Source: Galaxea fascicularis (taxonomy: Eukaryota; Cnidaria; Anthozoa; Scleractinia; Euphylliidae). Taken from it: a DNA stretch of 64,000 bases. This document shows, one piece after another, positions 25,926 to 43,655 of this stretch; the stretch's first letter is position 1, and each line of letters begins with the position of its first letter. The position numbers were made by a program, and so were the translations under genes. Where the stretch lies: the NCBI GenBank assembly GCA_948470475.1, contig OX419337.1:35534470-35598469 (forward strand), in the 5' to 3' direction. The notes beneath the pieces were generated by a model that was not told the DNA's origin, searched no databases, and saw only the letters and a program-made list of their open reading frames with translations.

Positions 25926-25928
25926 CGG

Positions 25929-28160: not shown

Positions 28161-28163
28161 AAT

Positions 28164-28200: not shown

Positions 28201-28239
28201 GTAGCGAGAATGCGTTTTCCAATGGGGTCAGTGGTATTT

Positions 28240-28917: not shown

Positions 28918-29280
28918 TTAAACGTTCAACTTGACTTTGGTTTGCATGATTTTCTTGACGATCCTTTCCGTGAGGGTCCGCTTGCCCGGCAATCCCTCGA
29001 TGGCTTTGATCATGCGACGATCGGCGGCGTGCTTGTCCCTCAAAGTCTTGGCCTTGTCGTAGTCGATGTCGTGTTGTTTGGCAATCTTGTCCAACCGGTT
29101 GATGCCCGGGTCCCCGCGTTTCAAACGTTTCTTCAAATGCGTGCCGGGGCCCATGTACTGATAGCCCGGCCAATGAAATTCCAGGCCCGTTTTGCCCAGC
29201 CATTTTTGCACGTCCACCCCGCGACCGCCCTGAGACGGCTTCTGGCATCGTCGCTTACTCGTCATCGTAGTCTTCTTCAT
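28918..29280 (-). CDS. Phospholipase A2-domain virion protein
   Basis: This 120-residue protein has the parvovirus-VP1-type PLA2 signature. A YMGPGTHL calcium loop lies at about residues 42-49, and the helix IAKQHDIDY, with the catalytic His-Asp pair, at about 66-74. In parvoviruses this domain helps virions leave endosomes, and PLA2 domains are known in Polinton-type elements. The N-terminus is basic; the C-terminus is Lys-rich and ends with the core gene block. The start overlaps the 3' end of the upstream 303-residue gene by 26 nt in another frame, and I see no promoter box of its own, so it may be expressed from the upstream transcript or from an alternative start (Met6). The catalytic residues are intact. 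Confidence 0.8.
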   Translation of the reverse strand: MKKTTMTSKRRCQKPSQGGRGVDVQKWLGKTGLEFHWPGYQYMGPGTHLKKRLKRGDPGINRLDKIAKQHDIDYDKAKTLRDKHAADRRMIKAIEGLPGKRTLTERIVKKIMQTKVKLNV

Positions 29281-30166
29281 CGAGTCGGCGTCGCGTGCGC
29301 TTCCCTCGCTCCCAATCTTCCCACCCTGGTTGGGTTCTCAACCGTCTCACTGCCAAGGGTGTTTTCGACGTTTCCTCCATGGCCCGTCGCCTTTTATCCA
29401 TGGCCCTGGCGACAGCCCCCCATAAATCGTCCTCACTCCTTGGACGCTCGATCTGGGGCGTCTTTTTCAATCGGCGTTTACCCTGTTCGAGGTCCCACGC
29501 ATCAAAGGGGGTCTTCCGTGTAGGCTCTTCCTCCTCCTCCTTTTTCACTTTCACGTCCTGAGGGGGTGGGAACGACCCGTCGTCTTCCTCTTCCTTTTTG
29601 ACTTCCACCCAAGGAGGGGGTGGGCGGGGCCAGTCGTCTTCCTCTTCCTTTTTGACTTCCACCCAAGGAGGGGGTGGGAGGGGCCAGTCCTCGTCCTCTT
29701 CTTCTTCTTTTGCCTTTTTGAACAACCGTTTGGGTTTTCTTGGCACTCTGGGTTTCACGTCCGTCCCTATGGCTTTGCTCACCGTTGTCTTGGCAGGGGT
29801 CCTACCTGTAGGGGTTCCCCCCTCCGTTTTTTGGGCCACTCTCACCATGCGTCGCATCCATTTGTCGAACGCACTGCTCACCAAGTCCGTTTCGGGAGCG
29901 TCGTCATCGTCGGCTGTCCCCGCCGTGCCTGCTGCGGGAACGTCCAAGGTTCGCAGTTTTTTCGTGGCTCGATGCAGGGCGCGCGATACGGGCTTCAACT
30001 TCATGCGTTTGGCGGCAGGCGACAGGTGGGGATCCTTCAACAACCGTTCCTCTTTGGCCGCCAAGGTGGCTGCATGGGTTAACAGATGGTTCTGCAACAA
30101 ACCGGCCTTGTGTTTAGCCACCCAAGGGGCGAATTCGCGTTTGGGTACGATCAACATTTCTTCCAT
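29255..30166 (-). CDS. Acidic/proline-rich repeat protein, 303 residues
   Basis: I do not recognise a catalytic family. The N-terminal ~100 residues are Ala/Leu/Lys-rich and probably helical. The middle carries three imperfect repeats of PPPPWVEVKKEEE type (DNA period about 54 bp, near 29560-29700). The C-terminus is Arg-rich and ends in an acidic tail. Its place between a small conserved protein and the PLA2 gene suggests a virion or scaffold component. The start (ATG 30166) is the first in frame. A TATAAGAG box lies about 95 nt upstream, farther than for other genes here. The repeats could bind WW- or SH3-like host modules, but that is a guess. Confidence 0.6.
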   Translation of the reverse strand: MEEMLIVPKREFAPWVAKHKAGLLQNHLLTHAATLAAKEERLLKDPHLSPAAKRMKLKPVSRALHRATKKLRTLDVPAAGTAGTADDDDAPETDLVSSAFDKWMRRMVRVAQKTEGGTPTGRTPAKTTVSKAIGTDVKPRVPRKPKRLFKKAKEEEEDEDWPLPPPPWVEVKKEEEDDWPRPPPPWVEVKKEEEDDGSFPPPQDVKVKKEEEEEPTRKTPFDAWDLEQGKRRLKKTPQIERPRSEDDLWGAVARAMDKRRRAMEETSKTPLAVRRLRTQPGWEDWERGKRTRRRLDEEDYDDE

Positions 30167-30342
30167 GACGAGACGGTGATGCGACCGGTCACGCGTGCTT
30201 CACCGACAGGGGTCGCACAGTAGGCGTCGTCTGAGTTCACAACACTCACGTTGCCACCTCTTATAGGTTCTTGTCGGCCGGACCTTCGAAGGTTCGACTG
30301 TTTTTTCTTCCTTGGCCGCTTGCAACAAGGCCACAAGAGCTC

Positions 30343-30660
30343 TCATCGTTGGAGACATCGACACACCGCTTGCAGTCCCCGCCATAAGCCACTGCCTGTC
30401 TGTCGGAGCAAGAGAGCGCGTCGTCGGGTCACCGAATGTTTCCGCTTGGCCAACTCGCGCAAGACCTTTTTATGCCTTTTCAACCGGGCCACGACGTCCG
30501 GGGTGACCCTGGCATGCCCTTTCAACGTGTTCAACACCAATTCGCTGATGGCATTGATCTGATCGGCGTTGGCGTGCCGTAGGAGGTCGTGACGGTATTG
30601 CCCGCGGGCATCTCGAAACAGACTTTCCAAAAACGGCAACTGACGTCTGAGACGTTTCAT
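30343..30660 (-). CDS. Small conserved Polinton protein, 105 residues
   Basis: Basic, helical protein: Arg-rich start, LPFLESLF, then an ISELVLNTLKGHARVTPDVV core and a KRHKKVLRELAKRK basic stretch. I recall proteins of this pattern (ELxLNxLxG...LTP...LKRHKKxLRxLA) recurring in animal Polintons, with unknown function. Relatives often end in a Gly-rich hydrophobic tail. Here the frame instead ends after RQTGSGLW, and an overlapping frame (30200-30385) encodes an Ala/Leu-rich stretch, so a frameshift is possible. A TATAAAAG box at 30701-30708 is 41 nt upstream. Confidence 0.65.
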   Translation of the reverse strand: MKRLRRQLPFLESLFRDARGQYRHDLLRHANADQINAISELVLNTLKGHARVTPDVVARLKRHKKVLRELAKRKHSVTRRRALLLRQTGSGLWRGLQAVCRCLQR

Positions 30661-30700
30661 CTCGAGGGGAACCGTCTGCGTCGACCAGGGTCCACGTTGT

Positions 30701-30708
30701 CTTTTATA
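30701..30708 (-). promoter_or_regulatory. TATA-like box of the core gene set (example)
   Basis: TATAAAAG on the minus strand, 41 nt before the 105-residue gene. The same octamer or a one- or two-base variant precedes most core genes at 30-50 nt: 31088, 31412, 31942, 32619, 32966, 33706, 35141, 35543, 38049, 39121 and 39970 (left coordinates). Another at 37749 lies farther from the integrase ATG. Confidence 0.65.
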
Positions 30709-30750
30709 CCCTCTTTTCTTGTGGCAACTTCCAGGGCTTTTCTGGGGGGG

Positions 30751-31056
30751 TCACATGAGGCAACAAGGGCTGGCTTTCTTGGCGATGAAACCTTGCGATC
30801 GAGCGTATTGGAGCCACGATTGTTTGCCCCCTCTTGCTTTGTGAGCCTGCCAGGCCGCTCTCATGCTGTCGTATTGCCGTTTGGCCTTCGTCATATCCGT
30901 GTTTTTGACGGCGCGAATCATGTCGCGCGTGACCTCATAGGCTTTTTTGGGATCCACCACCCAAGGCATCTTGCCCCCTTGCTGAGTGGAGGGTCGTCTC
31001 CGCCGACGTGTCGAGGAGATGGTTTTCTTCTTCTTTGTCGTCGCACGTTTGGCCAT
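30751..31056 (-). CDS. Basic GG-containing core-like protein, 101 residues
   Basis: The N-terminal 26 residues are nearly all Lys, Arg, Thr and Ser, followed by QQGGK, a plausible adenain-type cleavage context. Then comes a PKKAYEVTRDMIRAVKN helix and a Trp-containing C-terminus ending CCLM. DNA packaging or core function is inferred from the basic tract and from the protease in the same element. The start was chosen at ATG 31056 because a GATAAAAG box lies 32 nt upstream (31088-31095), inside the longer open frame. A decayed paralogue is at 31450-31595. Confidence 0.65.
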   Translation of the reverse strand: MAKRATTKKKKTISSTRRRRRPSTQQGGKMPWVVDPKKAYEVTRDMIRAVKNTDMTKAKRQYDSMRAAWQAHKARGGKQSWLQYARSQGFIAKKASPCCLM

Positions 31057-31090
31057 GGTCTGAGGTTGCGAGGACAGCGTCCCTTCCCTT

Positions 31091-31372
31091 TTATCGCGTC
31101 CACGAAAAGGTGGAACCATCGGGATGACGCACCAACCCAGACCTCCGTCGTTTCATGGCAGCACGTTCAACACTGCTTGCATTGTACCGCTTTTTGGTGG
31201 CGGCCTCTAGGGCTTTTTTGGCACCGTACCCCGCGGCACCACTGACGGCTCCTACAGCGGCCGCTTTGCCCGCCGCAATGGCTGCAGGCAGGAGGGCTAG
31301 TAGAGGAAACAGGCCTCCCTGGTGACGTCGCCGTCGAGTCGTCCGTCGTCGCGACACTCTTTGCTTGGGCAT
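31091..31372 (-). CDS. Basic/hydrophobic membrane-active-like protein, copy A
   Basis: 93 residues. An Arg-rich N-terminus ends HQGGL (likely protease site), then about 35 residues of Ala/Gly/Leu-rich hydrophobic sequence (LLALLPAAIAAGKAAA...), then a basic C-terminus. The arrangement resembles adenovirus pX/pVI-like minor virion proteins, which are cut at GG sites and contact DNA or membranes; the assignment is by layout only. A CATAAAAG box (31412-31419) is 40 nt before the ATG. It is paralogous to the gene at 31636-31902 through a local tandem duplication. Confidence 0.65.
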   Translation of the reverse strand: MPKQRVSRRRTTRRRRHQGGLFPLLALLPAAIAAGKAAAVGAVSGAAGYGAKKALEAATKKRYNASSVERAAMKRRRSGLVRHPDGSTFSWTR

Positions 31373-31449
31373 GCTCGCTTGTTGAGTGACCCCTCGTAGA
31401 CAGTGCGTTCCCTTTTATGTCGGACGGTGGGGTTTGGAAAAGGCACCGT

Positions 31450-31595
31450 GATGTTTTTCACAACACGAATCATGTCGCGCATGACCTCGTAAGCTTTTTT
31501 GGGCTGCACCACCCGAGGCATCTTCCCCTTGCTAAGTGGAGGGTCGTCTCCGCCGACGTGGTCTTCTTCTTTGTCATCATCGCACGTTTGGCCAT
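31450..31595 (-). pseudogene. Decayed copy of the basic GG-containing core-like gene
   Basis: From ATG 31595 the first residues match the 101-residue protein (MAKRA, then KKK). An internal deletion and a further 2-nt deletion then shift the frame, leaving an early stop. The downstream PKKAYEV-DMIR-VKN segment survives in another frame. The remnant runs into a copy of the ATPase 3' end at about 31450. It marks the second copy of a 530-540 bp tandem duplication. Confidence 0.75.
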
Positions 31596-31635
31596 GGTCT
31601 GACGTTTTGAGGACGGTAACAATGTTGGAGGGATT

Positions 31636-31902
31636 TCATCGCAATGAGGTAGAACCGTCAGAATAACGTGTTAACACGGTGTTCCCTCGTTTTGTGACGC
31701 TCGTTATCCTCCTCTTTTTCCTTTTTGTGGCTGCCTCGATGGCTTTTTTGGCGCCGTACCCCGCGGCACCACTGACGGCTCCTAAAGCGGCCGCTTTGCC
31801 CGCCGCGATGGCCGCCGGAAGGAGGGCTAAGAGAGGAAACAGGCCTCCCTCGTGACGTCGCCGTCGAGTCGTCCGTCGTCGCGACACTCTTTGCTTGGGC
31901 AT
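31636..31902 (-). CDS. Basic/hydrophobic membrane-active-like protein, copy B
   Basis: 88 residues, nearly identical to copy A for the first 57 residues (one His-Glu for Gln change before GG, one Ala-Leu change), then a diverged C-terminus. A CATAAAAG box (31942-31949) lies 40 nt upstream, overlapping the ATPase stop codon. Both copies are open, so the duplication may have doubled the dose or allowed divergence of this virion component. Confidence 0.65.
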   Translation of the reverse strand: MPKQRVSRRRTTRRRRHEGGLFPLLALLPAAIAAGKAAALGAVSGAAGYGAKKAIEAATKRKKRRITSVTKRGNTVLTRYSDGSTSLR

Positions 31903-31944
31903 GCTCGCTTGTTGAGTGACCTCTCATAGACAGTGCGTTCCCTT

Positions 31945-32589
31945 TTATGTCGGACGGTGGGGCTTGGCAAAGGCACGGGTGTACCCTTCGTCCTCCAAGA
32001 GGTCCGAAAAGACCCGGTACGTATCGTCGGAGGCCGGATGCAGATCCAAGAAGACGTACCCAAAAGGTCGGGCCGTCACGGTGTCGTAGACGTCTAACAC
32101 GTCGGGCCAATGTTTGGGAAAGGCTTGCCTGATGAGGTTGGTGAACCCCAACTGATCGCGAGGACTCTTGAAGGCCACGATGTAATGCGCATTACGCGAA
32201 ATGGTCTTGGCGTACTTGCCAGGGGGAAACATGTCTTGACAGAGATACAGCACGGTGATGTTGCGATGGTGCGAGTCTTTGGTGAACAGATCCAACACGC
32301 GTTTGTCGTTGCCCCCTTCCTCCATCAGATCGTCGAGGACCAAGACCCCTCCTTTCGTGCGACCGAACCAACGTTGTAATTGATCGCTCTCGGGTATGCC
32401 TTTGTGCATGTGTACCCCCAGTCGAGCCAACGGGTGAAATCCCTCTTGCCACACCCCGTAACAATAGTGGACGTTGGGCACCACGTCGCAAAAGTACCGG
32501 TGAGGCGCTTTCAAGAGTTTGGTGACAAATACCGTCTTGCCACACCCCGAGGGTCCCACCACCAACAGGCTACTCGGTGTCCGAATCAT
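31945..32589 (-). CDS. A32/FtsK-HerA-like genome-packaging ATPase
   Basis: 214 residues. Walker A GPSGCGKT is at residues 12-19 and Walker B VLVLDDL at about 82-88, followed by a CQD motif near 117-119 at a position expected for the sensor region. The length and the closeness of Walker A to the N-terminus match Polinton and NCLDV A32-type packaging ATPases, which pump DNA into capsids. A TATAAAAA box (32619-32626) precedes the ATG by 30 nt. The 3' end (last ~10 codons) is duplicated downstream at about 31440-31460. All motifs are intact. Confidence 0.88.
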   Translation of the reverse strand: MIRTPSSLLVVGPSGCGKTVFVTKLLKAPHRYFCDVVPNVHYCYGVWQEGFHPLARLGVHMHKGIPESDQLQRWFGRTKGGVLVLDDLMEEGGNDKRVLDLFTKDSHHRNITVLYLCQDMFPPGKYAKTISRNAHYIVAFKSPRDQLGFTNLIRQAFPKHWPDVLDVYDTVTARPFGYVFLDLHPASDDTYRVFSDLLEDEGYTRAFAKPHRPT

Positions 32590-32595
32590 CTTTGT

Positions 32596-32934
32596 TCAAC
32601 TCCACAGCAAGGCGTCGATTTTTATACTGCCCGCTTTCAGACGTCTGAGCATGGAATTCAACGTCAGACGCCCCGTGAGAGGCACCTTTTGCGTCTTCAA
32701 GGTCTTGGGGAGTTTCCGAAAGACCTCGGCCAACGTCACGGTGTCTTTGACCATCTTGATCTTTTTCTTTTTGCTCCGCACGCGTTTAGGTGGGTCGGGG
32801 TCGGGACCGTATTGTTCCTGCAACCGTTGCATCATACCCATCCACGAGGCTTGACTGGGTAAGGGAACCGCCGAGGTAAGTCGCGGAGGTACGAGCCCCG
32901 TCACAGGTTGCAAGTCGAGGCGTCGTTGGGCCAT
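32596..32934 (-). CDS. Unrecognised 112-residue protein
   Basis: No family recognised. The N-terminal half is Pro/Leu/Gln-rich with a WMGMM patch. The middle has a strongly basic KRVRSKKKKIKM tract, a possible nuclear signal. The C-terminal part is probably helical and ends ALLWS. I chose ATG 32934 over an in-frame ATG 54 nt upstream because a TATAAAAG box (32966-32973) lies between them. It sits between the protease and ATPase genes, only 6 nt from the ATPase start, so a small virion or assembly factor is likely. Confidence 0.6.
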   Translation of the reverse strand: MAQRRLDLQPVTGLVPPRLTSAVPLPSQASWMGMMQRLQEQYGPDPDPPKRVRSKKKKIKMVKDTVTLAEVFRKLPKTLKTQKVPLTGRLTLNSMLRRLKAGSIKIDALLWS

Positions 32935-33040
32935 ACTGATACGGTTACCCAAAGAGTGCGCCCCCCTTTTATATGGACAAAGGACCACACAGTCACCGCT
33001 TTTTTTTAATGTTTTATTAAGAACGACCTCGTTGTTGTTG

Positions 33041-33670
33041 TTAATACACGGTATCGTAGTTTTGGCCTTCCGGGTTCCCCGTCATCGTCATGAGCATGTC
33101 CATCAGACGCACGGGCACGTGGTTACTCTGGCGAATGGGGCCCGTCAAACGATGCCACGCCAAATCGCGTCGCACCAACCGCTTGAACCAGGCAGCCGCG
33201 CGAGCGTCGTTCTTCACGAAATCGTAACGACTAAAATACTGTTGAAACGTCTGTAACGTGCCTCCCAGACTGCAATGCACCAAAAACAGAAGGGCATAGG
33301 CACCGCACGTGTTGCTGTCGATGGCTTGCAAACTGCGCTCGTTGAAACGAAGGGTGGACCAATGCTTTTCCAACCAGTCTTCCAGGGCAGGCGCCCCGTA
33401 ACGCCACAACGGTAACCCAAAACTGTCCATCACCAAGCAGGTGTCCTCCTCTTCGTCGTCGTCGTCAGGGCCCGGCGTCCAAAGGGCCATCCAATGACTG
33501 CCGGGACGATCGTGAGGGTCCACGTTGACGATATACCCTTGCGCACGGTCTCGGATGGGTCGAGGGGGCAGTCGGTCGCTGGGAAAGACCCCGGCAAAAT
33601 GAGGACCAAGGTGGGGGTCGTCTTCGGCCAAATGCCGCAACTGTTCGTCCGTGGTGGGCACCAACTCCAT
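33041..33670 (-). CDS. Adenain-like cysteine protease
   Basis: 209 residues. The catalytic order of adenovirus protease/Ulp1-type peptidases is visible: His59 in GSHWMALW, Asp82 in VMDSFG, Gln115 in LQAIDS, and Cys122 in NTCGAYALLF. Such enzymes cleave capsid and core precursors, often at GG-containing sites, and several small proteins in this element carry QGG or QQGG motifs that fit as substrates. A CATAAAAG box (33706-33713) is 36 nt upstream and overlaps the end of the major capsid gene. The length is typical for the family and no key residue is missing. Confidence 0.88.
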   Translation of the reverse strand: MELVPTTDEQLRHLAEDDPHLGPHFAGVFPSDRLPPRPIRDRAQGYIVNVDPHDRPGSHWMALWTPGPDDDDEEEDTCLVMDSFGLPLWRYGAPALEDWLEKHWSTLRFNERSLQAIDSNTCGAYALLFLVHCSLGGTLQTFQQYFSRYDFVKNDARAAAWFKRLVRRDLAWHRLTGPIRQSNHVPVRLMDMLMTMTGNPEGQNYDTVY

Positions 33671-33708
33671 GGTGGGACTGACCTTAGGCCTGCCTTCTAA
33701 TGGCTCTT

Positions 33709-35091
33709 TTATGTGCCATAGGCATTGTACAACACGCCTCCGTCATGGGTGATTTGCATGACGTTCTCAAATTCGCCGTAAATGACCACCGTGGCGACGT
33801 GACCCAACCCGGCATTCAAGTGAAATTGCACGCGCACGTTGCCCTCTTTTTGCGGGTTGAGAATTTTGCCGTCGGCATCCCCACTGGCCACGTTGTCGAA
33901 GACGTACAAGGTGCAATTCTTGCCGTACCCCCACTCTTGGGGCCGTACCAGGTTGGGTCGCCTTTCTTTCCAAGCCGAGGTGGCCTGCACGAAGCGGAAA
34001 TATCCCACCAGATCTTTGTTGCCATTGCCCGCATTCAATTCGAGGGTCGTGCCGTAGGGATACTCTTCCCCGTCCACAAACTGTTTGATCCACTGTAACC
34101 CAAACTGTTGAAAGGCAAACGGCGAGTACGTGTAGTCGCCGTTGTAACTGCTCTGGTGCAACAACCCCACGATCATCCGATCGGGCACGCAGTGGAGAAA
34201 GATGCGATCTTCGTCAAAATCCGTCTGACCCGCAGGGAGGGCATACGCGCGAATCTCCGAACGCACCAAGGGGTACTTGGCATAATACCCCTCGTTTCTT
34301 TGTAATTGCAAGGTATTGGCGAGGGGGTCGGACAATTGCACTTGACACACGTGAAACTTGATTTTGATGTCGGCGTCCGTCAAACGGCCTTGCTCTGCCA
34401 CTCCGTTGAGGAAGAAGGCCGGTTCGTGAAAGAAGAAACGCACCACCACTTCTACAAAGGGTACCAAGGGTTTGCCCATGTAAAAAGCTTCCGAGTGCGG
34501 CTTGAAGTACAGCGTGCGTCGTTTGCCAGCCGTGTAGTGCCCTTGTTCTCTCTTCATGGCCTTCACGGCAGCTTTTTGGGTGGCACTGAGAGCCGTGTAG
34601 TCGGCATGAGGGGTCGTGTCGTCCAAGTTGTTGGCCGTCAAGGGGGTGGCCACATCCAATCCATCTTGTTGGAAACCCTGCAAGGGCAAGAGGGTCTCTC
34701 CATCCAGGCGATCGTTGTTGATGAGGGTCTCAAAGTAAGCTTTGTACGGGTAGGTGTCCGTCTGGGAACTGATCAACGTGCCATTGAAGGTGACGCTGCA
34801 TTGTTTGATCATGGTGTGGCACAAATTCTGTGCGGGGAACAGATTGTCCGCGTCTGCGACATTGTTGCCATTGTGTTGTTTCATTTGAAATTCCATTTCG
34901 AAGAAACTCCGATTCAAGTCCACGTACTCGTTGACGCCCGACATGACAAATTGCATGGGTTGAATGCCCCCACTGTCCGCTTTCACCAACACCATGCGAT
35001 ACTTTTCGTAGGAAGTATCCGTCGGGGGGACGTCGAAGATTTGCATGGTGGGATGCCAGGTAGTGGCGGTAGGTGTCCTTCCCTCACTCAT
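33709..35091 (-). CDS. Polinton major capsid protein (double jelly roll)
   Basis: 460 residues. Recognisable Polinton MCP features in order: an N-terminal strand with GVNEYVDLNRSFF, an NGTLISSQTDTYPY segment near residue 100, a LYFKPHS...FFLNGV segment, a middle stretch with SYNGDYTYSPFAFQQFGL, and the C-terminal VVIYGEFENVMQIT hallmark. In related elements this fold forms the hexagonal capsomers. I use ATG 35091; the frame is open a little further upstream but with a GTG codon. A TATATAAAAG box lies about 50 nt before the ATG (35141-35150). The frame is uninterrupted, supporting a recently functional virion gene. Confidence 0.92.
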   Translation of the reverse strand: MSEGRTPTATTWHPTMQIFDVPPTDTSYEKYRMVLVKADSGGIQPMQFVMSGVNEYVDLNRSFFEMEFQMKQHNGNNVADADNLFPAQNLCHTMIKQCSVTFNGTLISSQTDTYPYKAYFETLINNDRLDGETLLPLQGFQQDGLDVATPLTANNLDDTTPHADYTALSATQKAAVKAMKREQGHYTAGKRRTLYFKPHSEAFYMGKPLVPFVEVVVRFFFHEPAFFLNGVAEQGRLTDADIKIKFHVCQVQLSDPLANTLQLQRNEGYYAKYPLVRSEIRAYALPAGQTDFDEDRIFLHCVPDRMIVGLLHQSSYNGDYTYSPFAFQQFGLQWIKQFVDGEEYPYGTTLELNAGNGNKDLVGYFRFVQATSAWKERRPNLVRPQEWGYGKNCTLYVFDNVASGDADGKILNPQKEGNVRVQFHLNAGLGHVATVVIYGEFENVMQITHDGGVLYNAYGT

Positions 35092-35096
35092 CGTGC

Positions 35097-35288
35097 TCAC
35101 CGGCGTCCTCGTCGCCTTTGCCGTGTTCGCTTGTGCATCTCTTTTATATACGCGCGTGTCCAGGAAGGCACCATGTCAGGAGCCCCCGGCCAAATTCGTC
35201 CCCCGACTTGAGGCGCCACGCCTTTCAGACCGTGCCGTTGAAGCCCCCTCGAGGGCATGGGTGTCATGACGATGCGCCGCTTCACCAT
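35097..35288 (-). CDS. Possible small basic protein, 63 residues
   Basis: The frame starts 2 nt after the stop of the 72-residue gene and ends just before the capsid gene. It is Arg/Lys-rich at both ends with a GGRIWPG middle. The capsid promoter-like box lies inside it. It could be translated from the upstream transcript or be a chance frame; no family recognised. Confidence 0.3.
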   Translation of the reverse strand: MVKRRIVMTPMPSRGLQRHGLKGVAPQVGGRIWPGAPDMVPSWTRAYIKEMHKRTRQRRRGRR

Positions 35289-35290
35289 CT

Positions 35291-35509
35291 TCAGGGTCCC
35301 AAGATATCGTGCACACTGTGCTTGACGCGTTTACTCACTCTGTCGAGGACTTCGTCAGCTTTGCGTTTCAAGGCCCTCTTCACGTGCTTTTGTACCTTTC
35401 TGGCGACGACTTGACCCCCCCTTTCGAGCACGGGTCCGACAAACCGACTGAAAAGCCCCGACCCGTCTTGCGACGTGGGGGTGTACCGTGTCAGACTGCC
35501 TCCTCGCAT
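35291..35509 (-). CDS. Small Gly-rich/basic virion-like protein, 72 residues
   Basis: It starts MRGGSLTRYTPTSQDGSGLF, followed by RFVGPVL and a long basic amphipathic helix (KVQKHVKRALKRKADEVLDRV). I recall small Polinton proteins with the same GSGL-hydrophobic-basic layout, thought to be minor core or membrane-interacting components; function unproven. TATAAAAG at 35543-35550 is 34 nt upstream, and a second TATAAAG lies at about 35574. It lies between a minor-capsid candidate and the major capsid gene. Confidence 0.6.
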   Translation of the reverse strand: MRGGSLTRYTPTSQDGSGLFSRFVGPVLERGGQVVARKVQKHVKRALKRKADEVLDRVSKRVKHSVHDILGP

Positions 35510-35574
35510 GACTCACAACTGCTTTGGGTGTTGGGGAGTGTCCTTTTATACACGTCGACTGGATTGTCTTCTCT

Positions 35575-36612
35575 TTATACACGCTGGCGAAAATGCAAAG
35601 TCAAGTTGGAGGGTCCCTCCCCCAGATGCGCCAAGGCACCGGCCATCTCGGCGATTTGCACTTCCATCACCTCGAACGAGGGTTGACGCACCGGCAGGTA
35701 TTGCACGTGGGTGGGTTCGAAGTAGGCGTACCCATTTCGGTCCGTGGTGGAAAGGTGGACTTCTCTGAGGAGATCCGTGATGCGTTCGCCCACGATGGTG
35801 CTCTGACCCGCATTGCAGTAGACACGCAGACTGCGCGAGGGGGGGAAGAAGGTCTTTTCAAACCAACCCCAATTCAAGTTGGTAAACTCCCAGGTCTGTT
35901 GTTGCGTGAAAAGGACCCACTCTCCCTGGATGGTGGCCGCATCGATGGGCTGAGTGTTGATCTTCTCGCTGGCGGGAGGGGACTTGTAATGAATCTGACG
36001 GATCTGGGGTCCGGGAAAACTGTGGTTTGAACCAATGCCTCCTAACAACACCATCAAGTCGTACGCAAAGCCCACTGTGATGTTCTCGGAAGCGCGCTCG
36101 CATCCGCTGCCGTCGATTTGCAAGGTGGTGGGACCCGTCCAACGCAGGGTTTGAAAGTACTCCGCATCGGTTTCCGGATGCTTCCATTCTTCGAGGTCCG
36201 TGCTGTCTTTTTCCGTGTACTTGAAATAGTAGGCGATTCCCTTTTGCAACTCGAACACGAGGGACCGCATGAAAGAGACCCCGTCGTGCACCGACTCGTC
36301 CTGCAACAGGTCGTCCACGGTGACCACGGCCCTCACGTTATTGTTGGCCACACTGCGTGTCCCGCGCGCATCCACCTTGGTCGTGTACCCCCGTTGATAG
36401 GCAAGTTGGGTGCCCGAAGGAAACTTTTGCAACAGGGCGGACCGAAATTCGTTCCGAAGGGGTAGCGACAGGCTCGCCAACCCCACTTGCCAGTCTTTGC
36501 CTACGAACTTTAAGGGGGTGGGCAATTGCACCTTGTAACTGTTGTTGCGATTGGCCCTCGCGAATTGAGCTCCTCCGCCATCGCTGGGCAACGTCACGTA
36601 GAGCTCTTCCAT
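35575..36612 (-). CDS. Minor-capsid-type protein 1 (YVTL family)
   Basis: 345 residues from ATG 36612; the frame is open further but without an upstream ATG. The N-terminus has LYVTLPSDGG, a polar stretch, then PLKFVGKDWQVGLASL. The C-terminus has a VGERITDLLREV segment, YFEP, and a final LTLHFRQR. This pattern is shared by an abundant family in animal Polintons, usually regarded as minor capsid (penton-like) or virion-surface protein. The start overlaps the integrase 3' end by 19 nt. It is paralogous to the protein at 38052-39089 (same length, same end motifs). No clear TATA-like box precedes it, unlike most genes here. Confidence 0.7.
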   Translation of the reverse strand: MEELYVTLPSDGGGAQFARANRNNSYKVQLPTPLKFVGKDWQVGLASLSLPLRNEFRSALLQKFPSGTQLAYQRGYTTKVDARGTRSVANNNVRAVVTVDDLLQDESVHDGVSFMRSLVFELQKGIAYYFKYTEKDSTDLEEWKHPETDAEYFQTLRWTGPTTLQIDGSGCERASENITVGFAYDLMVLLGGIGSNHSFPGPQIRQIHYKSPPASEKINTQPIDAATIQGEWVLFTQQQTWEFTNLNWGWFEKTFFPPSRSLRVYCNAGQSTIVGERITDLLREVHLSTTDRNGYAYFEPTHVQYLPVRQPSFEVMEVQIAEMAGALAHLGEGPSNLTLHFRQRV

Positions 36613-37667
36613 GCCTTGAGGTCCGAAGTGGGGATCCAACTATCGTATTTGGCCGGCCACCCTTTCCATCTCACCAACGCTCGCTTGCCACGCCGTTTAA
36701 GTACTTTTTCGATGCGCCACAAAGTGTCGTCGTCCACGGTGACTTTTTGTAGATCCTCTTCGTAAAACGTCCCCTCCACGGGTGTGCCATCCATTTCTTC
36801 GATTTTGTAGGTGATGGGAACCCCCGACACCACGCGTTGCACGACAAACACTTCCTCCGTCCATTGGGGCAAATACCCTTTCTTGAAGAGTCTCGTGCGT
36901 TTGCTCAAGCGCACGCGATCCCCTCTGGCCAATCGAGGTCGCCTCCGATCAGGTTTCAACCGCAAACCGTACAATCGCTGCCACACAAACTCTTCGTTCT
37001 CCGGCGTCACTTGTCGCGGTGCCAAACCAATGCTACGGTGCTTGGAGGCATTATACCCAGCCACCAAGTCGGGGAGGATGTCGATGTACTTCAAGGTGTT
37101 GGCTGCAGTGAAATAGCGGTACATGCGACCCTTGACCGTGCGATTGAACCGTTCCACCACGGCGGCTTTGGCATCCCCTTTCGTGGAAAAATGATGAATG
37201 CCTTCTCGCTTCAACCAGGCCTGCACGGTAGCGTTGTAAAATTCTTTACCTTTGTCCGTCTGCAAGGTTTGTGGCTGGCGTCCCCCATCCTTGAGAATGC
37301 TTCGAAAGGCTCGCACGACCTCGGCGCCCGTCTTGTTTTTTAACGGACGCACCCACGCGTAATTCGACAAGACGTCCACCACGGTCAGGAGGTAACGTAT
37401 GCCGCGGTTGTGGCGGGCCACGCGCTGCATTTCCACCAGATCGGCCACCCATTGCTGGTCGCGCTGAAACACCAAGACGGGCAGCGTCGAAAACCGCCGA
37501 CGCGGGGGTTTGTGCAACGTGTAGGCCAAATTCTTTTGCAACAAAGTGCGTGCCTTCTTCAGGGACCACCCGTGAGCGCGTGCGAACCGGGCCACCCCGC
37601 CCAAGGCACCGGGTGCTGCAGGGTCCTCGTAGGATGCTGCCGTTGTAGGCTTCTTTTTTTTCTTCAT
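36594..37667 (-). CDS. RVE-type DDE integrase with chromodomain
   Basis: 357 residues from ATG 37667. An N-terminal region (SYEDP ... FARAHGWSLKKARTLLQK) leads to the retroviral-type core: Asp in WVADLVEM, Asp in LQTDKGKEF, and Glu in VVERFNRT about 34 residues later (D,D-35-E type). The C-terminal 40 residues form a chromodomain (LWRIEKVLKRRGKRALVRWKGW ending DSWIP). The enzyme would insert the element and make the 6-bp duplication seen at its ends; the chromodomain may bias target choice to modified histones. An in-frame ATG at 37739 is possible, but it lies only 10 nt from the CATAAAAC box. The ATG overlaps the upstream gene's stop (ATGA). Confidence 0.9.
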   Translation of the reverse strand: MKKKKKPTTAASYEDPAAPGALGGVARFARAHGWSLKKARTLLQKNLAYTLHKPPRRRFSTLPVLVFQRDQQWVADLVEMQRVARHNRGIRYLLTVVDVLSNYAWVRPLKNKTGAEVVRAFRSILKDGGRQPQTLQTDKGKEFYNATVQAWLKREGIHHFSTKGDAKAAVVERFNRTVKGRMYRYFTAANTLKYIDILPDLVAGYNASKHRSIGLAPRQVTPENEEFVWQRLYGLRLKPDRRRPRLARGDRVRLSKRTRLFKKGYLPQWTEEVFVVQRVVSGVPITYKIEEMDGTPVEGTFYEEDLQKVTVDDDTLWRIEKVLKRRGKRALVRWKGWPAKYDSWIPTSDLKAWKSST

Positions 37668-38008
37668 GGTCGTCGAAGTCTGTCCGTCACCCACAGGCAA
37701 ACTCGACGCCACGCCAACTCTCGAATGGTGGGCAGGCATAACCCGTACGTTTTATGTATCTTGCGGTACCATTGCCAACTTTCTGGCCAAGGGTACCCCT
37801 CGTCCAACCACACCACAAAGGCCGTGAAGGTCCCCCAGTGCAACTCCTCGAGAAGGTATTCGAAGACGTCGAGGGGAGTGCCATCGGCGGCCGCGTCCAT
37901 GGCGAACACATCCTTACTTGGTACCCCTATGACGGCCACGAGCGATCGACATACCGTGCGCAACATGACCCAACGGCATCGACTCCACACGTCTGCGCAC
38001 GTCGTCAT
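37664..38008 (-). CDS. Unrecognised 114-residue protein
   Basis: No family recognised. The N-terminal third contains a VMLRTVCRSLVAVIGV hydrophobic stretch. The middle is acidic (DVFEYLLEELHW), and the C-terminus is Trp/Arg-rich. ATG 38008 was chosen because a CATAAAAC box (38049-38056) lies 41 nt upstream, whereas the longer open frame begins upstream of it. The stop overlaps the integrase start by ATGA. The position suggests co-expression with the integrase. Confidence 0.55.
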   Translation of the reverse strand: MTTCADVWSRCRWVMLRTVCRSLVAVIGVPSKDVFAMDAAADGTPLDVFEYLLEELHWGTFTAFVVWLDEGYPWPESWQWYRKIHKTYGLCLPTIRELAWRRVCLWVTDRLRRP

Positions 38009-38051
38009 GGTTTTCGCACACTGACGAGTCAAGGTGGCAGACGGCCCGGTT

Positions 38052-39089
38052 TTATGGCTTCCTGCGTCTGAAATGCAAGGTGACCGTCGTGTGCGTGCGA
38101 CCCACTTGTGCCGTGGGCAACGCATGCCCCAACCCATCCCTCAAACTCACGCTGGCCACCTCCAGTCCGTAATAGCGCACGGACCGAAATCGTTCTGGCG
38201 AGGGTTCGTAATACACACCCCCCTCCCCTCGCTGCAAGTGCGGCACCTCTTGCAAGAGATCGGTCGTCCGATCCCCCACCATGACGGCACGTCCCACGTT
38301 GGAATAGATGTGCAGACCCTGCGTGTGGTGCGTCTTGCCCACCACGCTGTCGAAGGCGTCATTCAGACGCACGAAGCGCCATTTCACTTTAGACGAAAAC
38401 ATGACCGTGTCACGCGTGGAATCGTATTTTAACAGCACGTCACCGTGAGCAATGATGGAGTCCACCGTGTGACCCCACCTTGGGGCCGGGCCCGTGACCA
38501 CTTGACGCAATTCGGGAATGGCATTGTGGCCTAGAAGAAATGACAAATTTTGCGATGGGTCGGGCATCAACCAACCCATCTTGAAACACAAACTCTTGTT
38601 CAATTCAAAGGTCGTTTCATCGAGTCCATCGACAATCATCTCCGTGGCGCCATTGGAGGTGTCCCAACTCACGCGGGGGCGGATCTGCAGGGTTCCGTCT
38701 TCGTAGTCAAACAGATTGACTTTCAACAACCATTGTTCGATCAAGGCTTTCATGAACGCTTCGCCCGATGGCAAGGGATGTCGAGCATTCGAGGCCACCA
38801 TGTCACTGACAAGGACTTGGTTCTTGATCGTCCAGGGAAAGTCCGAATCCCCCTCTTTCAATAATCGGGTGGTCGTGACCAACAAGGCCTTGCTAGGTTG
38901 GTCGTGCAAGAGGGTGACGTCCATCCCACGATCGCGCATGACCAGACTGCTCAAGGCCACTTCCCACCCAGGCTCTCCAAACGTCAGGGGAGTGGCTAAT
39001 CGCACTTGAAAGGACGCCGCCGTGTTCTGGGGAAATTCGGGCGTCGTGTCGCTCGACAGGGTCACGTACATGTCCCTGAGTCCCCTCAT
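38052..39089 (-). CDS. Minor-capsid-type protein 2 (YVTL family)
   Basis: 345 residues. It has the same plan as the protein at 35575-36612: MYVTLSSDTTPEFPQN near the start, PLTFGEPGWEVALSSL, then a C-terminal VGDRTTDLLQEV, YYEP, and a final VTLHFRRRK. The shared length and motifs show a duplication within this lineage, but the middle regions differ strongly. ATG 39089 lies 32 nt after an ATAAAAAG box (39121-39128). The frame is open a few codons further only with a GTG. Two penton-like paralogues could form different vertex or fibre-base proteins; this is inference. Confidence 0.7.
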   Translation of the reverse strand: MRGLRDMYVTLSSDTTPEFPQNTAASFQVRLATPLTFGEPGWEVALSSLVMRDRGMDVTLLHDQPSKALLVTTTRLLKEGDSDFPWTIKNQVLVSDMVASNARHPLPSGEAFMKALIEQWLLKVNLFDYEDGTLQIRPRVSWDTSNGATEMIVDGLDETTFELNKSLCFKMGWLMPDPSQNLSFLLGHNAIPELRQVVTGPAPRWGHTVDSIIAHGDVLLKYDSTRDTVMFSSKVKWRFVRLNDAFDSVVGKTHHTQGLHIYSNVGRAVMVGDRTTDLLQEVPHLQRGEGGVYYEPSPERFRSVRYYGLEVASVSLRDGLGHALPTAQVGRTHTTVTLHFRRRKP

Positions 39090-39209
39090 CTCGACTGACC
39101 CCCGTGCCACGGCGTCCCATCTTTTTATGCTATTTGTCTAGGGTCGTGGGTGAGGCATACATGCACACACTGCAAGAACCACCCACCTCGAAATGAGGTC
39201 TGTAATGGT

Positions 39210-39923
39210 TTAATCTTTAAAAATGGACCGCACGCGATTACAAGGCCAACTGCAATTACAGGGTTTCCAGCACAACACTTCTTCGGGGGTCCCACGCTGG
39301 TACACCCGGTTTTTCTCGTCCTCACATGACTCACACAACACCAGGTCCAACAGGTCGTCACACCGTGCACGCCACAGATCGCGTTCTCGCAAGGCCTTTT
39401 CGTAAAGGGGCTCGACGACCGAGGCGGGGGTGGCCACATCCTCCTCCACCTCTGCTTTGGGTTCGGGTTTCGGGGTGTAGTCCTCGCCCATCGTTCCCCT
39501 GGCCCATCGCGTCACGTACTTCACAATGGATTTTTCCAAATGGTACTGGGTGCGGCCGATAGATTGCACGTTTTCCCACAATCCCTCTTTTTCTCGCAAC
39601 TCTTTAATCCCTTGGCACTCGTCCATCTCTCTGACCTTGTCCTTCAATGTGTGAAGCAGATGAAACGACATGGGCTCGAACTGGGGAGGAGCCTCCTTTC
39701 GCGCTAGGGGTGCCAGGGCCGCCGGGTCTACCTTGGCCCACGCCTTCACGCAGTTCACAATCTCTTTCTCCAAGTCGTACCGAGCCTTATCGAAAGCATG
39801 CGCGACCTCCCATCGTCCTTTCCTCGCCCACCCTTCGTACGTTTCGTCTACACTAAGCATGTCCAAGACTTTGTCGTGCAACCCCCATTGCAGTGGGTCT
39901 GGCATCTCGGGATGTCCGACCAT
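39210..39923 (-). CDS. Internally duplicated protein with Cys-rich tail, 237 residues
   Basis: Unrecognised. Two copies of a [HY]-x-LEK-[ES]-IV-x2-V-x2-WA helix occur at roughly residues 50-65 and 130-150, pointing to an internal duplication. An acidic Pro/Glu linker follows. The last 40 residues hold seven cysteines in CxxC ... C-x3-C-x-C-x3-C spacing, which could bind zinc, though a regular RING order is not met. It is the first gene after the right TIR and has a TTATAAAG box at 39970-39977, 47 nt before ATG 39923. Regulatory or early function is possible but only by position. Confidence 0.6.
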   Translation of the reverse strand: MVGHPEMPDPLQWGLHDKVLDMLSVDETYEGWARKGRWEVAHAFDKARYDLEKEIVNCVKAWAKVDPAALAPLARKEAPPQFEPMSFHLLHTLKDKVREMDECQGIKELREKEGLWENVQSIGRTQYHLEKSIVKYVTRWARGTMGEDYTPKPEPKAEVEEDVATPASVVEPLYEKALRERDLWRARCDDLLDLVLCESCEDEKNRVYQRGTPEEVLCWKPCNCSWPCNRVRSIFKD

Positions 39924-40187
39924 GGCGAAGAACAAAACAAAAATGATCAACAATGTCAAACAACGCGCTCTTTATAAGGTCCGTGGTGCCTGCAATGCGC
40001 GCAAAGCCACTCAATCGCAGCCAGGCCCGTGAGCTCTTTTCTTGGCCATGGATAAAAGGCAACGGGCCATGGAGGAAACGTAGTTTACCGACAGTGGTTC
40101 TTTTTGAAAAAAGCAATTGACAATAAAAGGTTCTTTAAAAAACGATTTGCAATGCGTGTGATTCACATATAGGTCGGGATATTACTA

Positions 40188-40715
40188 TTTTAGAGAGGGA
40201 CACTTTGTGACGTCTTACATGATGCATCGAAACCACCCCCCTGGGTGGGGGTGGGATACCACTGACTCCAAGTGAAAATAACCTTGCAGGCCCTTGTTTT
40301 CCAGAGAGGGACCCTTCGTGACCTCCTACATGATGCACCGAAACCACCCCCCTGGGTGGGGGTGGGATACCACTGACTCCGTGTGGAAATAGCCTCGCAA
40401 ACCCCTATTTCTTAGAGGGGGACCCTTCGTGACCTCCTACATGATGCACCGAAACCACCCCCCTGGGTGGGGGTGGGATACCACTGACTCCGTGTGGAAA
40501 TAGCCTAGCGGGCTTCTCTTTCCCAGGTGGGGACACGTCGTGACCTCCTACATGATGCATCGAAACCACCCCCCTGGGTGGAGGTGGGATGCCACTGACT
40601 CCAAGTGGAAATAACCTCGCAGGCCCCTATTTCTCAGAGAGGGAACCCTTCGTGACGTCTTACCTGACGTATCGAAATCACCCCCCCGGCTGGGGTGGGA
40701 TACCACTGACCAAAT
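40188..40715. repeat. Five 111-bp tandem units, right TIR inner edge
   Basis: Mirror copy of the array at 28240-28765, in inverted orientation. The two arrays bracket the core genes symmetrically. Confidence 0.9.
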
Positions 40716-40750
40716 ACCACTGACCCCATTGGAAAACGCATTCTCGCTAC

Positions 40751-40788
40751 GGAAAACAATAGGCCTTTTTTCAGAGGCCTATTTTCCA
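40751..40788. repeat. Hairpin (AATAGGCC...GGCCTATT), right TIR
   Basis: Mirror of the left-TIR hairpin at 28164-28200, with the same stem and loop. Confidence 0.6.
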
Positions 40789-40789
40789 T

Positions 40790-41986
40790 TTGTCGCCGTA
40801 ATCTCTCCGTAATCTAGCCTTTGTGCCACCCACGTGGGCGAGATGCCCAATCAGGACAAAGGAGTCGACCGACTGCGTCACATCCACGCCATCGAAACAT
40901 TACTTGCCAAGCACTTGAGATGCGGGGTTTAGTTTTTGGGCGGCGTGAAAGCTTGCAGCTTGATTTGATCCTCAGCGTTAAAAAAAGACTTTTCACAGCT
41001 TGATTTGATCCACCGGTAACGCGACAAGACCTTTCTGCAAGCTCTGTTTTTTGTGTACAATCGAAAGAGGATCTTTACAAACGATTTTCTCATTTCAAAC
41101 GACCTTCGAAAAGAAACGCAAGCTCGAGGTAAGTTCTCTTCTTCTTCTTCTTCTTCTTCGTTCCAACGTTTGTCGAACTCCAAAACCTTCCTTAAAATCA
41201 CCATGACTCTTACCTAAGCGTTGCATAGGTTGGGTTTGAAGCGGTTTTTCAAGCTAACATAATTTTTTTTTGTTTTTCTTTGCAAAAACACTCGCTCGCA
41301 ATGCGGGAAGCGTTGGCGGCCACAATTTTTTTTTTCCCTTTAAAAGCTTACGTTTGGTCATCCGAGGAAACAACCCCCATTCTTATTTTCGTTTGTTTGT
41401 TTGTTTTTTTTTCCAGAAGATTCAAACGAGTCGGTGGTGCGAACAAAGCACATTCAAAGACCGATACTTTTTCCGAGAAAACCCTGACCGCTCTCGTGGA
41501 TGTTTCCAGGAAAACACAGAAATTGGTGAGTGGTTCAAATCCTTTGCTTTCATGACCACGACTTACTAAACCTCGATAAAAAAGAAAAGGCCTCCGAGCT
41601 CTGCCATATATTTTTTTTTCCTTTGCAATAATCCTCAAAACGGACTCGCTCAAACGACAGTTGAAGATTTATGTTAGCTTTCTTTTGATGTACCGTTTTA
41701 CCGTTCGCAGTGCTCACGTTTTCGTTTGTAGTTCAATGATGGATTTCTCCGGCGACAACGAGCTTAAACCATCGTGATTATTATTTTCTTCTGTTATTTT
41801 TTTTTTCGTTGTAAGTCGATGTCCATCTTATGTGTGTGCTCTTCAAAAAAAAAATTCAGAGCGGTGTGCTCGCTCGACCAAATTGGCTCCGTTACGAAAA
41901 TAACATGTTTTGCTAGCCGAGAGAAGCGATTCCCTTTGTTTTCTCGTTTCGCTTGTTTGCTTTTCCTTTGTTTTTTCTTTTTTCAG
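40790..41986 (+). other. Inner TIR, possible 5' exons of the TIR gene (right)
   Basis: One credible exon lies at about 41417-41527, between a long T-tract ending CCAG and a GTGAGT donor; it encodes a Lys/Arg/Thr-rich stretch. Another acceptor-like TTTGTAG precedes a short ATG-containing segment at about 41732. A GGTAAGT donor is at about 41127. I cannot define the start codon. Two copies of CAGCTTGATTTGATCC sit at about 40957 and 40996. Confidence 0.35.
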
Positions 41987-43016
41987 ATCTCTAGTTTTAA
42001 CGCGGACAGATCGCTACCCTATAGGGATTCATATACAAATGCACATGCCCCAGCGCCTACGGGTTCACCTACAAATGGGGTTTAATTCGATTGTATCAAA
42101 GGTATTCTCCAAAACCATTCTCTTTCAGTTAAATCCGCATCGTCTCATGCTGTGCGCTCTCTGCGGCACGATCCACCTCTGCGTCGTTTGCCATGCGAAC
42201 ACATGCACCGGATCCTGAGCGTAAGTTTTTTTTTTTCTTGTTTTTAGATTCCCGGCCACATTTTGACGTGCGTGGTCGATCCGTGGAGCCACGTCGCGTG
42301 CATGTGCTTCACGGAAGACGGATGGTGGGGCCTGACCCGTAAGTTTTTTTTTTCAGATCCCCGCGCACATCCTCACATGCAAATTCATCATCGAATGGCC
42401 CGACTTCCATCAAACGTGCATATGTTCGTACGCGTACACTGGACGTGCATATGCGTGAGTCTTTTTTTCCTGTTTTTTCAGATCCCCGGTCACGCATTGA
42501 CTTGTGAATTCGGTATCTTCGGTATCCACCGAACGTGCATGTGCGAGCATTAGTAAGTCTTTCCTCTGGTTCTTTTCAGATCCCCGGTCACGTATTGACG
42601 TGCAGGATCAAACACATTTGGCCTCACCGATACAAGTGCACGTGTCGCCATTTCGGTCGCACACCATCAAACGTGCATGCGTTCGCATGATTCCAAACGC
42701 CCCCGCCGCCGAGTAAGTCTTTTTTTTCCCGCGTTTTTCTTTTTTTCAGATAGATCTCACTTACGGTAAATTGGCTTTCAAAATCTCAGGTGTCACATGG
42801 TGCCCATTTTACCGCAACTGCACATGTCATTTCAGATTGTTTCGGCGCCACTTTCGCCAAAACAAGTAAGTGCTAATCAATTTTTCCTTTTTTTCCCAGC
42901 GATTAGCAGTACCCATTCTGCGTGAAGCCTTCCCGGTGGACAAAGCGTTTCACCTCCTCCTCCCCCTTCTTCACAGCCCACGATAATGGATTGACACCTT
43001 CCCCTCTTCTCTGCAG
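41987..43016 (+). other. Array of micro-exon-like Cys/His modules (right TIR)
   Basis: Modules of roughly 71-133 nt (41987-42101, 42129-42220, 42248-42338, 42357-42454, 42482-42552, 42580-42712, 42750-42865) are separated by intervals starting GTAAGT, GTGAGT or GTATTC and ending T-rich plus AG. Interval lengths are 27, 27, 18, 27, 27, 37 and 34 nt. Four modules open in the same phase with I-P-[GA]-H-x-L-T-C. These four fit H-x3-C-x(6-9)-H-x(2,3)-C-x-C; the preceding module has CxxC pairs and the following one a CxC end. Stops in the shared phase fall at or near the donor in several modules, so simple joining in order does not keep one frame. I read this as a duplicated-exon gene with very short introns; no transcript evidence is available. 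Confidence 0.55.
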
Positions 43017-43019
43017 CCG

Positions 43020-43253
43020 ATGATGACAGCCAAAAGGAAATTACCCCACATCGCCACCTCCTCCCTGGTCGTATGCATGCTGTTCCCCTATTGTACCGTG
43101 ATGGACCATACCGCCTATTTTCCACAACCCCTGAGAGACTTGGTTCCCTCTCGAGCCACCATCCCCAATTTGATCAACTTCATGTCCAACATGCAAGCGG
43201 CCAACCACCCACACACCGGAGGCAGAAGGAGGCGAAGGAGGCGCACACGTTGA
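43020..43253 (+). CDS. TIR-encoded 77-residue basic-tailed protein or last exon (right copy)
   Basis: Right-repeat copy, transcribed outward. It begins with two methionines directly after an acceptor-like TTCTCTGCAG at 43016. It has a hydrophobic Cys-containing stretch, a middle rich in N, P and M, and an Arg-rich tail following TGG. It is preserved intact in both TIRs, but near identity of the repeats means this is weak evidence of selection. It is either an independent small gene or the 3' exon of the micro-exon series upstream. Confidence 0.45.
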   Translation: MMTAKRKLPHIATSSLVVCMLFPYCTVMDHTAYFPQPLRDLVPSRATIPNLINFMSNMQAANHPHTGGRRRRRRRTR

Positions 43254-43414
43254 ACATTTGATTTTCTTTCTTTTTTTCATTGTTGTCAGACGTGGCGGTT
43301 TTTTGTTCCTGCTGTCGTCCTTGTTTTTTTTCCGCCACTTTTCTTTTTTCGTGAAAAAAAAATCAAGGAGCTGCTGTTATTAAAAACCCGTTTGCCATTT
43401 ATTCTTGTGTGTGT

Positions 43415-43500
43415 CTTCTCATTTGCATTTATGCTAATGACATCATTTGCATATATGCTAATTTTTTCATTTATGCTAATTTTTTTAATTTATGCAAAAA
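43415..43500. promoter_or_regulatory. Octamer-like repeats near right tip
   Basis: Mirror copy of the cluster at 25445-25530: ATTTGCAT twice and ATGCTAAT three times, 155-240 bp from the element end. It could be a host-factor site for terminal replication or for transcription of the TIR gene, or simply AT-rich sequence drift. Confidence 0.5.
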
Positions 43501-43655
43501 AGGTCACGTGGTACACAGGGTCGCGCTAGGGCGGCTGGTACGTCCAAAATGGCCGTATAGGGAAATTCGTATCGAATTGAACGCAGCGGCAAACGCAGTC
43601 TCTTTTTTCCCCTACTGATTTCATTGCTTGCCGTAATGTAACGTATAATACTACT

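Follow-up and report, generated by a model that had tools for sequence, protein, structure and literature searches.

A row of duplicated Cys/His coding exons, probably used one per transcript, in the terminal inverted repeats of a Polinton-related element of Galaxea fascicularis

Introduction

Polinton/Maverick elements reportedly go back to work by Kapitonov and Jurka in 2006 and by Pritham in 2007. The polymerase pPolB is one of the proteins that define a Polinton. Intact vertebrate Mavericks are reported to be free of introns and to carry terminal inverted repeats (TIRs) of 46–1,447 bp (PMC8097293). In contrast, the element from the genome of Galaxea fascicularis described here has TIRs of 3.6 kb, which contain an array of spliced-looking exons. 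A location at the genome end, splicing and small, variable accessory genes are features of the early regions of adenoviruses. Small and variable accessory genes of DNA viruses are also represented by the adintovirus "Oncoid" genes, to which the array is similar in this respect; in contrast to both groups, no sequence match was found, and the accessible part of PMC11071296 contains no such module array. The first-pass annotation of this locus knew of no Polinton gene like it, and literature searches, most subscription papers lying outside their scope, found none either.

Protein repertoires based on exon choice are known from animal genes. For exon 17 of Dscam, a short distance between donor and branch point is said to render the exons mutually exclusive. 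In the literature searched, no such repertoire was found for mobile elements of the Polinton kind. For mutually exclusive exons, PMC7969005 describes a steric threshold when the branch point is roughly 50 nt from the donor. The OGDH exons 4a/4b treated there resemble the array in being tandemly duplicated, in sharing one entry phase and in having gaps that do not exceed this proposed limit. In contrast to OGDH-type exons, the gaps of the array are shorter, most exons have stops of their own, the exit phases are unequal and the whole is located in a mobile element. Due to the unequal exit phases, the array is not classified here as a cluster of mutually exclusive exons, although its working would be similar.

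The stretch of DNA analyzed (the window) comprises 64,000 nt of contig OX419337.1 (assembly GCA_948470475.1, positions 35,534,470–35,598,469 of the forward strand). We read its array as a row of duplicated coding exons under purifying selection, which are likely alternative, with one exon per transcript (probability roughly 0.6).

The element and its genes

The element (Table 1) ends in AGTAGT...ACTACT, the (AGT)2//(ACT)2 motif of Polinton/Maverick ends, and is flanked on either side by a 6-bp target duplication (TAAATA, 25284–25289 and 43656–43661). Its TIR arms are 99.58% identical across 3590 alignment columns, and all identified internal genes are located on the minus strand. The integrase matches the RVE family PF00665 above the cut-off (E 2e-13, 50.9 bits). 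For the capsid protein an AlphaFold2 model with a pLDDT of 88 predicts the double-jelly-roll fold, and its top Foldseek matches are the capsid proteins of iridovirus, PBCV-1 and mavirus (best E 3e-16). On sequence level 195 relatives were found, two of the 120 listed being named F54H12.2-like and coming from the corals Oculina patagonica and Acropora millepora, in keeping with a stony coral as the likely host; a comparison with PDB sequences returned just two neuraminidase matches (E 0.57). The ATPase ORF matches Pox_A32 with an E of 2.6e-4 and 21.0 bits vs. a cut-off of 22.8, and the protease ORF matches Peptidase_C5 below the cut-off (E 0.05–0.07). The phospholipase A2-like gene adjoins the left TIR. 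Scans of viral contigs with the capsid, integrase and ATPase yielded no confirmed relative.

The rve integrase, the predicted double-jelly-roll capsid, the 6-bp duplication and the terminal motif are shared with Polinton/Maverick elements (PMC8097293; PMC4028283), to which a putative A32-like ATPase would add. In contrast to these elements, no pPolB was found here. PF03175 has no match in the window (149 matches listed genome-wide, with 74 of 380 candidates scored), the window was also without a match when a close PolB served as query (81 of 307 candidates scored), and a scan of 17 window ORFs of the element revealed no polymerase match, the longest open frame in the element having at most 488 amino acids. 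Therefore, the element is named Polinton-related and not a complete Polinton.

In both TIRs, 111-bp repeats in 4.7–4.8 copies (40192–40710 and 28241–28766) separate the array from the block of minus-strand genes. Their position is enhancer-like, i.e., that of a putative shared enhancer. Outside the element, a G+C-rich repeat of 65 bp occupies 11397 to about 15700 with some 62 copies, those listed being mostly 100% identical, and a 189-nt inverted repeat with 98% complementarity and a 45-nt loop is located at 51011–51433.

Table 1. Features of the Polinton-related element and of its exon array (positions of the window).
Feature	Positions	Strand	Remarks
Polinton-related element	25290..43655	.	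18.4 kb; sequence and TIR alignment
Left TIR	25290..28876	-	same array, outward-facing
Left-TIR copy, E2 to element end	25290..26697	-	0 mismatches
Left-TIR copy of E1	26727..26818	-	0 mismatches
Left-TIR copy of E0	26846..26960	-	1 mismatch
Phospholipase A2-like protein	28918..29337	-	PF08398, E 1.6e-11
A32-like packaging ATPase	31945..32589	-	under Pfam cut-off
Adenain-like protease	33041..33670	-	weak match
Major capsid protein	33709..35100	-	double-jelly-roll fold, predicted
Integrase	36594..37739	-	rve core, weak chromodomain match
Right TIR	40076..43655	+	about 3.59 kb, array reads outward
111-bp repeat	40192..40710	.	4.7 copies, upstream of array
Leader exon, 3' part	41050..41128	+	donor GAG/GTAAGT at 41129, 11.8 bits
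E0	41987..42101	+	acceptor 41987; AUG 42039 in frame leaving in phase 0 via GTATTC 42102
E1	42129..42220	+	LNPHRLMLCALCGTIHLCVVCHANTCTGS-stop, own in-frame AUG
E2	42248..42338	+	IPGHILTC... module, left in phase 1, open up to donor
E3	42357..42454	+	IPAHILTC...CIC module, stop inside GTGAGT
E4	42482..42552	+	IPGHALTCEFGIFGIHRTCMCEH-stop
E5	42580..42712	+	IPGHVLTC...CTC module, donor 25 nt after stop
E6	42750..42865	+	IDLTYGKLAFKISGVTWCPFYRNCTC... module, stop inside GTAAGT
E7	42900..42986	+	RLAVPILREAFPVDKAFHLLLPLLHSPR-stop, phase-0 entry
Last exon	43017..43253	+	(P)MMTAKRKLPH...RRRRRRRTR-stop

The exon array in the window

The exon boundaries proposed by the first-pass annotation were borne out, with GTATTC at 42102, GTAAGT at 42221, 42339, 42553, 42713 and 42866, and GTGAGT at 42455. 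After every one of these donors a T-rich stretch ending in AG follows, and the intervals measure exactly the 27, 27, 18, 27, 27, 37 and 34 nt reported. Furthermore, the modules starting at 42248, 42357, 42482 and 42580 do share one phase, the start I-P-[GA]-H and the pattern H-x3-C-x(6-9)-H-x(2,3)-C-x-C, as had been read in the sequence. The outward-facing array is indeed present in both TIRs, with no mismatch over 42248–43655 and E1, and one in E0.

E1 at 42129 is a Cys-rich module of a different type from the IPxH modules. Beyond the modules described before, the array continues with two more conserved ORFs, E7 and the last exon, and a poly(A)-like signal ATTAAA is present downstream of the latter (43379–43384). 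A Pfam scan of the E0–E1 ORF and of the last exon gave no match, and no homologue of the last exon was found in the protein collection searched.

Relatives in the host genome

The host genome was searched over 416.6 Mb in 170 contigs. An exact 21-mer of one module was found at 64 genomic places, many of which are inverted pairs 13.8–17.9 kb apart. These places were grouped by eye into clusters, and 38 arrays, one per cluster, form together with the window the first set of 39 arrays. Since this set was picked by a module 21-mer, the presence of modules in it is partly a result of selection. This is corrected for by a test set, for which the tail of E1 served as handle (88 places at 74–95% identity over 18–23 residues). 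It comprises 20 arrays of about 22 clusters not covered by the 21-mer, and in 20/20 the 21-mer is absent from the stretch read. All 59 arrays are related by descent, and the counts given below are not numbers of independent events. Donors were searched as GT[AG]AG, so that their form is given by definition. The architecture figures count every donor once (213 exons in the first set, 93 in the test set); the row tables (221 and 98 rows), which are the basis of the IPxH and E0 tallies and of the interval range and median of the first set, contain 13 duplicate entries caused by a second AG.

Each array lines up modules built on a common plan: a pyrimidine-rich AG, a frame open from the first base, a C-x-C and a stop at or near GTRAGT. 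The commonest module start is I-P-[GAS]-H-x-L-T-C, besides which LNPHR, ID and ITRW occur, and the number of modules differs between arrays. Modules are entered in phase 0 and left mostly in phase 2: exon lengths are 3n+2 in 252, 3n+1 in 44 and 3n in 10 of the 306 exons (first set 170, 38 and 5 of 213; test set 82, 6 and 5 of 93). Tandem homologous exons with a single entry phase are present across the arrays; a common exit phase was not found. In the first set the intervals range from 15 to 51 nt with a median of 27 nt, 212 of 213 being shorter than 50 nt; this also applies to 92 of 93 in the test set, where the longest has 61 nt.

Own stops lie at the donor or at most 55 nt before it in 280 of the 306 exons, and in 140/306 a TAA or TGA within GTRAGT itself serves as stop. 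Within the first set, the stop is at the donor in 114 exons, at most 55 nt upstream in 73 and absent before the donor in 26, and all 93 test-set exons carry it at the donor or within these 55 nt. In the first set, 24 of the 165 IPxH modules, including E2 of the window, are without a stop before the donor, and 23 of these 24 are of the "GWW" type with a length of 3n+1. A Cys at position 8 was found in 165/165 of these modules and a later C-x-C in 162/165; in the test set both are present in 68/68. The first-pass annotation had named a lack of conservation of phase and Cys/His positions in related elements as one outcome that would refute it; both are conserved.

None of the 306 exons of the 59 arrays has G as its final base, directly before GTRAGT. 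G is the usual base immediately before a donor. Therefore, the module donors are weaker than the consensus, and they may be held weak.

In one array (L021, oriented positions 1391–2019) a block of three modules is duplicated in tandem, the copies being 97.5% identical over 316 columns in a gapped comparison; in an ungapped shift test the duplication was not visible. The first module of the copy starts with IPGHVLTC like the module that follows, as if an exchange had occurred within the shared start.

Codon-level selection

For the 24-nt module starts of the 39 arrays (60 distinct), pN/pS is 0.22 in frame vs. 1.47 and 1.40 when the two remaining frames are read. The test set alone (31 distinct starts) gives 0.23 vs. 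1.46 and 1.40, and all 59 arrays (73 distinct starts) give 0.23 vs. 1.41 and 1.39. Values of 0.23 for E1 (28 distinct rows), 0.10 for E7 (15 rows) and 0.35 for the last exon (21 rows) were obtained, the controls being 0.53–1.08 for introns and 0.77–0.95 for the poly(A) flank. Cys codons alternate between TGC and TGT among modules, and of 107 distinct proteins 104 were counted, 103 of which have a His 1–3 residues ahead of C-x-C. The spacer that follows Cys 8 up to C-x-C is variable, with 7 to 17 residues. Judged by their codons, the module starts are under purifying selection. The in-frame pN/pS and the relatives bear out the earlier description of the modules as duplicated small Cys/His exons that are real coding sequence. 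They likely encode small H..C..H..CxC peptides, for which the residues suggest zinc binding.

Here, the array might also be a decayed or unexpressed relic that is maintained by repeat turnover on DNA level. In line with this, 4 of the 20 test arrays (L092, L100, L103 and L104) give just 1 or 2 rows, and the conserved frame of E0 in the window contains a stop. Nevertheless, the low in-frame pN/pS and the silent exchange of Cys codons argue against decay, as do the frames of the last exon and of E7, which stay open at about 74% and 79% DNA identity, respectively, and are kept in both subfamilies of arrays, a few members (L019, L044) showing decay. We consider such a relic quite improbable.

The intervals as introns

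According to the first-pass annotation, the intervals would be introns of 18–37 nt; the host would then remove introns of 15–50 nt, and all modules would become part of one multi-zinc protein. The GTRAGT and T-rich AG borders of the intervals fit to this, and the modules are real coding exons. However, frame, stops and missing branch points argue against the proposal. After removal of the interval, none of 203 adjacent pairs keeps the conserved frame (0/147 in the first set, 0/56 in the test set), and most exons carry the own stops described above. Furthermore, no A is present between GTRA and the final AG in 126/213 intervals of the first set and 60/93 of the test set, in total 186 of 306, as in the example GTAAGTTTTTTTTTTCAG. 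No lariat branch point fits inside an interval without A; therefore, the branch point of its acceptor has to lie upstream of the neighboring donor and can serve only a donor farther upstream. In one host family, the chaperonins (48 matches), the gaps between consecutive exon matches range, from their coordinates, from about 125 nt to kilobases. A gene with such micro-introns is therefore very improbable.

The loss of frame, the intervals without A and the short gaps speak against a chain; the modules look like either-or exons. Intervals below 50 nt account for 304 of the 306, and neighbors could not be joined in frame or, through a presumed steric block, across such distances.

Upstream exons and start codons

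In the either-or reading, an upstream exon would supply the donor. The donor of the leader exon at 41129 is the strongest one upstream. The leader was read in 21 sequences, from the window and from 20 of 28 placed elements, and 20 of them retain this donor. In all 20 sequences that keep it, the phase-0 frame of the leader is open and ends in QTTFEKKRKLE; the remaining sequence has lost the donor. The leader has no in-phase AUG, and an ATG in another frame is present in 5/21 sequences. In E0, the first ATG opens a frame leaving in phase 0 in 46/59 arrays. The 13 exceptions comprise 6 arrays in which no E0 donor was found, 1 that lacks the acceptor, 3 that lack an ATG and 3 with a broken frame or another phase. 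The second frame of E0 (KCTCPSAYGFTYKWGLIRLYQ) is the conserved one, with a pN/pS of 0.19 vs. 1.76 for the AUG frame (18 sequences), and due to these values the AUG frame is a candidate coding frame at most, despite its phase. Two frames of E0 look used, and the window copy (41987–42101) has a stop in the conserved one. From the predicted splicing, the leader, with or without E0, would be joined to one module.

Two candidates were rejected. Exon 2 (41417–41525) is not a common coding exon, since its donor at 41526 reads CTGAGT in most aligned relatives and 5-nt indels occur. A spliced retrocopy was sought in the genome via a junction of exon 2 with a module, i.e., with a donor that is itself not conserved, and none was found, the junction giving 12 places, all with 2 mismatches (control: 3). 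P0121, a 98-aa ENA protein from a contig of 825 bases, ends in the E1 tail, but its residues 1–79 match a host locus (C4, 96%), and they meet the E1 tail at a point other than the acceptor. Since this junction also lacks splice signals, P0121 is treated as a chimera (or insertion) and not as evidence for splicing.

Since none of the conserved exons found would offer every module an in-phase AUG from upstream, a short spliced-leader RNA, added in trans to every acceptor to yield separate mini-mRNAs, was also considered. A leader ending in AUG would explain the phase-0 entry everywhere, and module types of unlike sequence share this entry right at the acceptor, each with a stop of its own. On the contrary, the conserved GTRAGT donor after each module would be left without explanation, and E1 as well as the last exon possess an AUG of their own, which renders trans-splicing improbable.

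The modules might also be mainly regulatory, similar to poison exons, the inclusion of which would end translation early and lower the output of the last ORF (MMTAKRK...). Stops at or near the donors would suit this, and the last exon is conserved and has a pair of ATGs right after its acceptor. Nevertheless, poison exons need no conservation of a Cys/His protein, yet the residues of the modules are under strong purifying selection. A mainly regulatory role appears unlikely.

Array-bearing elements and PolB

For the integrase, 108 of 1255 candidates were scored. Among the 87 listed loci at least 87% like that of the window, two arrays lie within 20 kb at 27 loci and a single one at 18, a PolB lies within 16 kb at 15, and 27 have neither; array (45) and PolB (15) do not co-occur at any of them. 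The 21 listed distant loci (67–72%) comprise 5 with PolB and one array, 15 with PolB only and 1 with neither, and the integrases of those carrying both are 67–68% like that of the window. None of the 30 inverted E1 pairs, 13.2–17.3 kb apart, encloses a PolB among the matches listed, and among these matches six single arrays have a PolB within 10 kb.

Since array and PolB never occur together at the close loci listed, the elements of the window type look like polymerase-less satellites, which would need a polymerase in trans. Their long TIRs may go back to a duplication of the array-bearing end.

A model of either-or exons and its meaning

The preferred reading of either-or exons starts from what is directly established: the modules, their phase-0 entry and own stops, the intervals, the codon selection and the presence in 59 arrays. 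Here, an upstream exon would be joined to a single module per transcript, every acceptor being served by the leader donor at 41129 or the E0 donor at 42102. A donor less than about 50 nt from the next acceptor would sterically forbid the joining of neighbors. With gaps of 15–61 nt that would probably not permit splicing, and with a chain that would be off-frame, one module per transcript is predicted. As most stops are at or close to the donor, splicing onward would add few residues to such modules. Each product would be a small protein, in which the residues H-x3-C...H-x(1-3)-C-x-C presumably bind zinc. The array would represent an accessory gene set of the early type, diversified by duplication and loss of modules in conflict with host factors. 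Against this model stand the exit phases, which are unequal among the modules, unlike those of classical mutually exclusive exons. The 24 IPxH modules without a stop, the weak donors, the lack of an in-phase AUG in the leader, the selection on the second frame of E0 and the four test arrays with 1 or 2 rows count against it as well.

A more far-reaching picture, which we regard as tentative and rather doubtful, is a Dscam-style switch in the element ends. Each reactivation would draw one zinc mini-protein from a shuffled cassette, with exclusivity arising from intervals too short to be spliced. The satellite lineage would have gained the cassette a second time at the price of its DNA polymerase, and would live off its PolB-bearing relatives and outnumber them.

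Intact Polintons have been described as compact viruses or transposons that are free of introns. If the reading as either-or exons is true, Polintons would use the alternative splicing of the host to obtain a repertoire of small proteins. Furthermore, the intervals would represent a natural test of the minimum distance between a donor and the next acceptor, and the split between array and PolB would open a route to studying satellite elements in animals.
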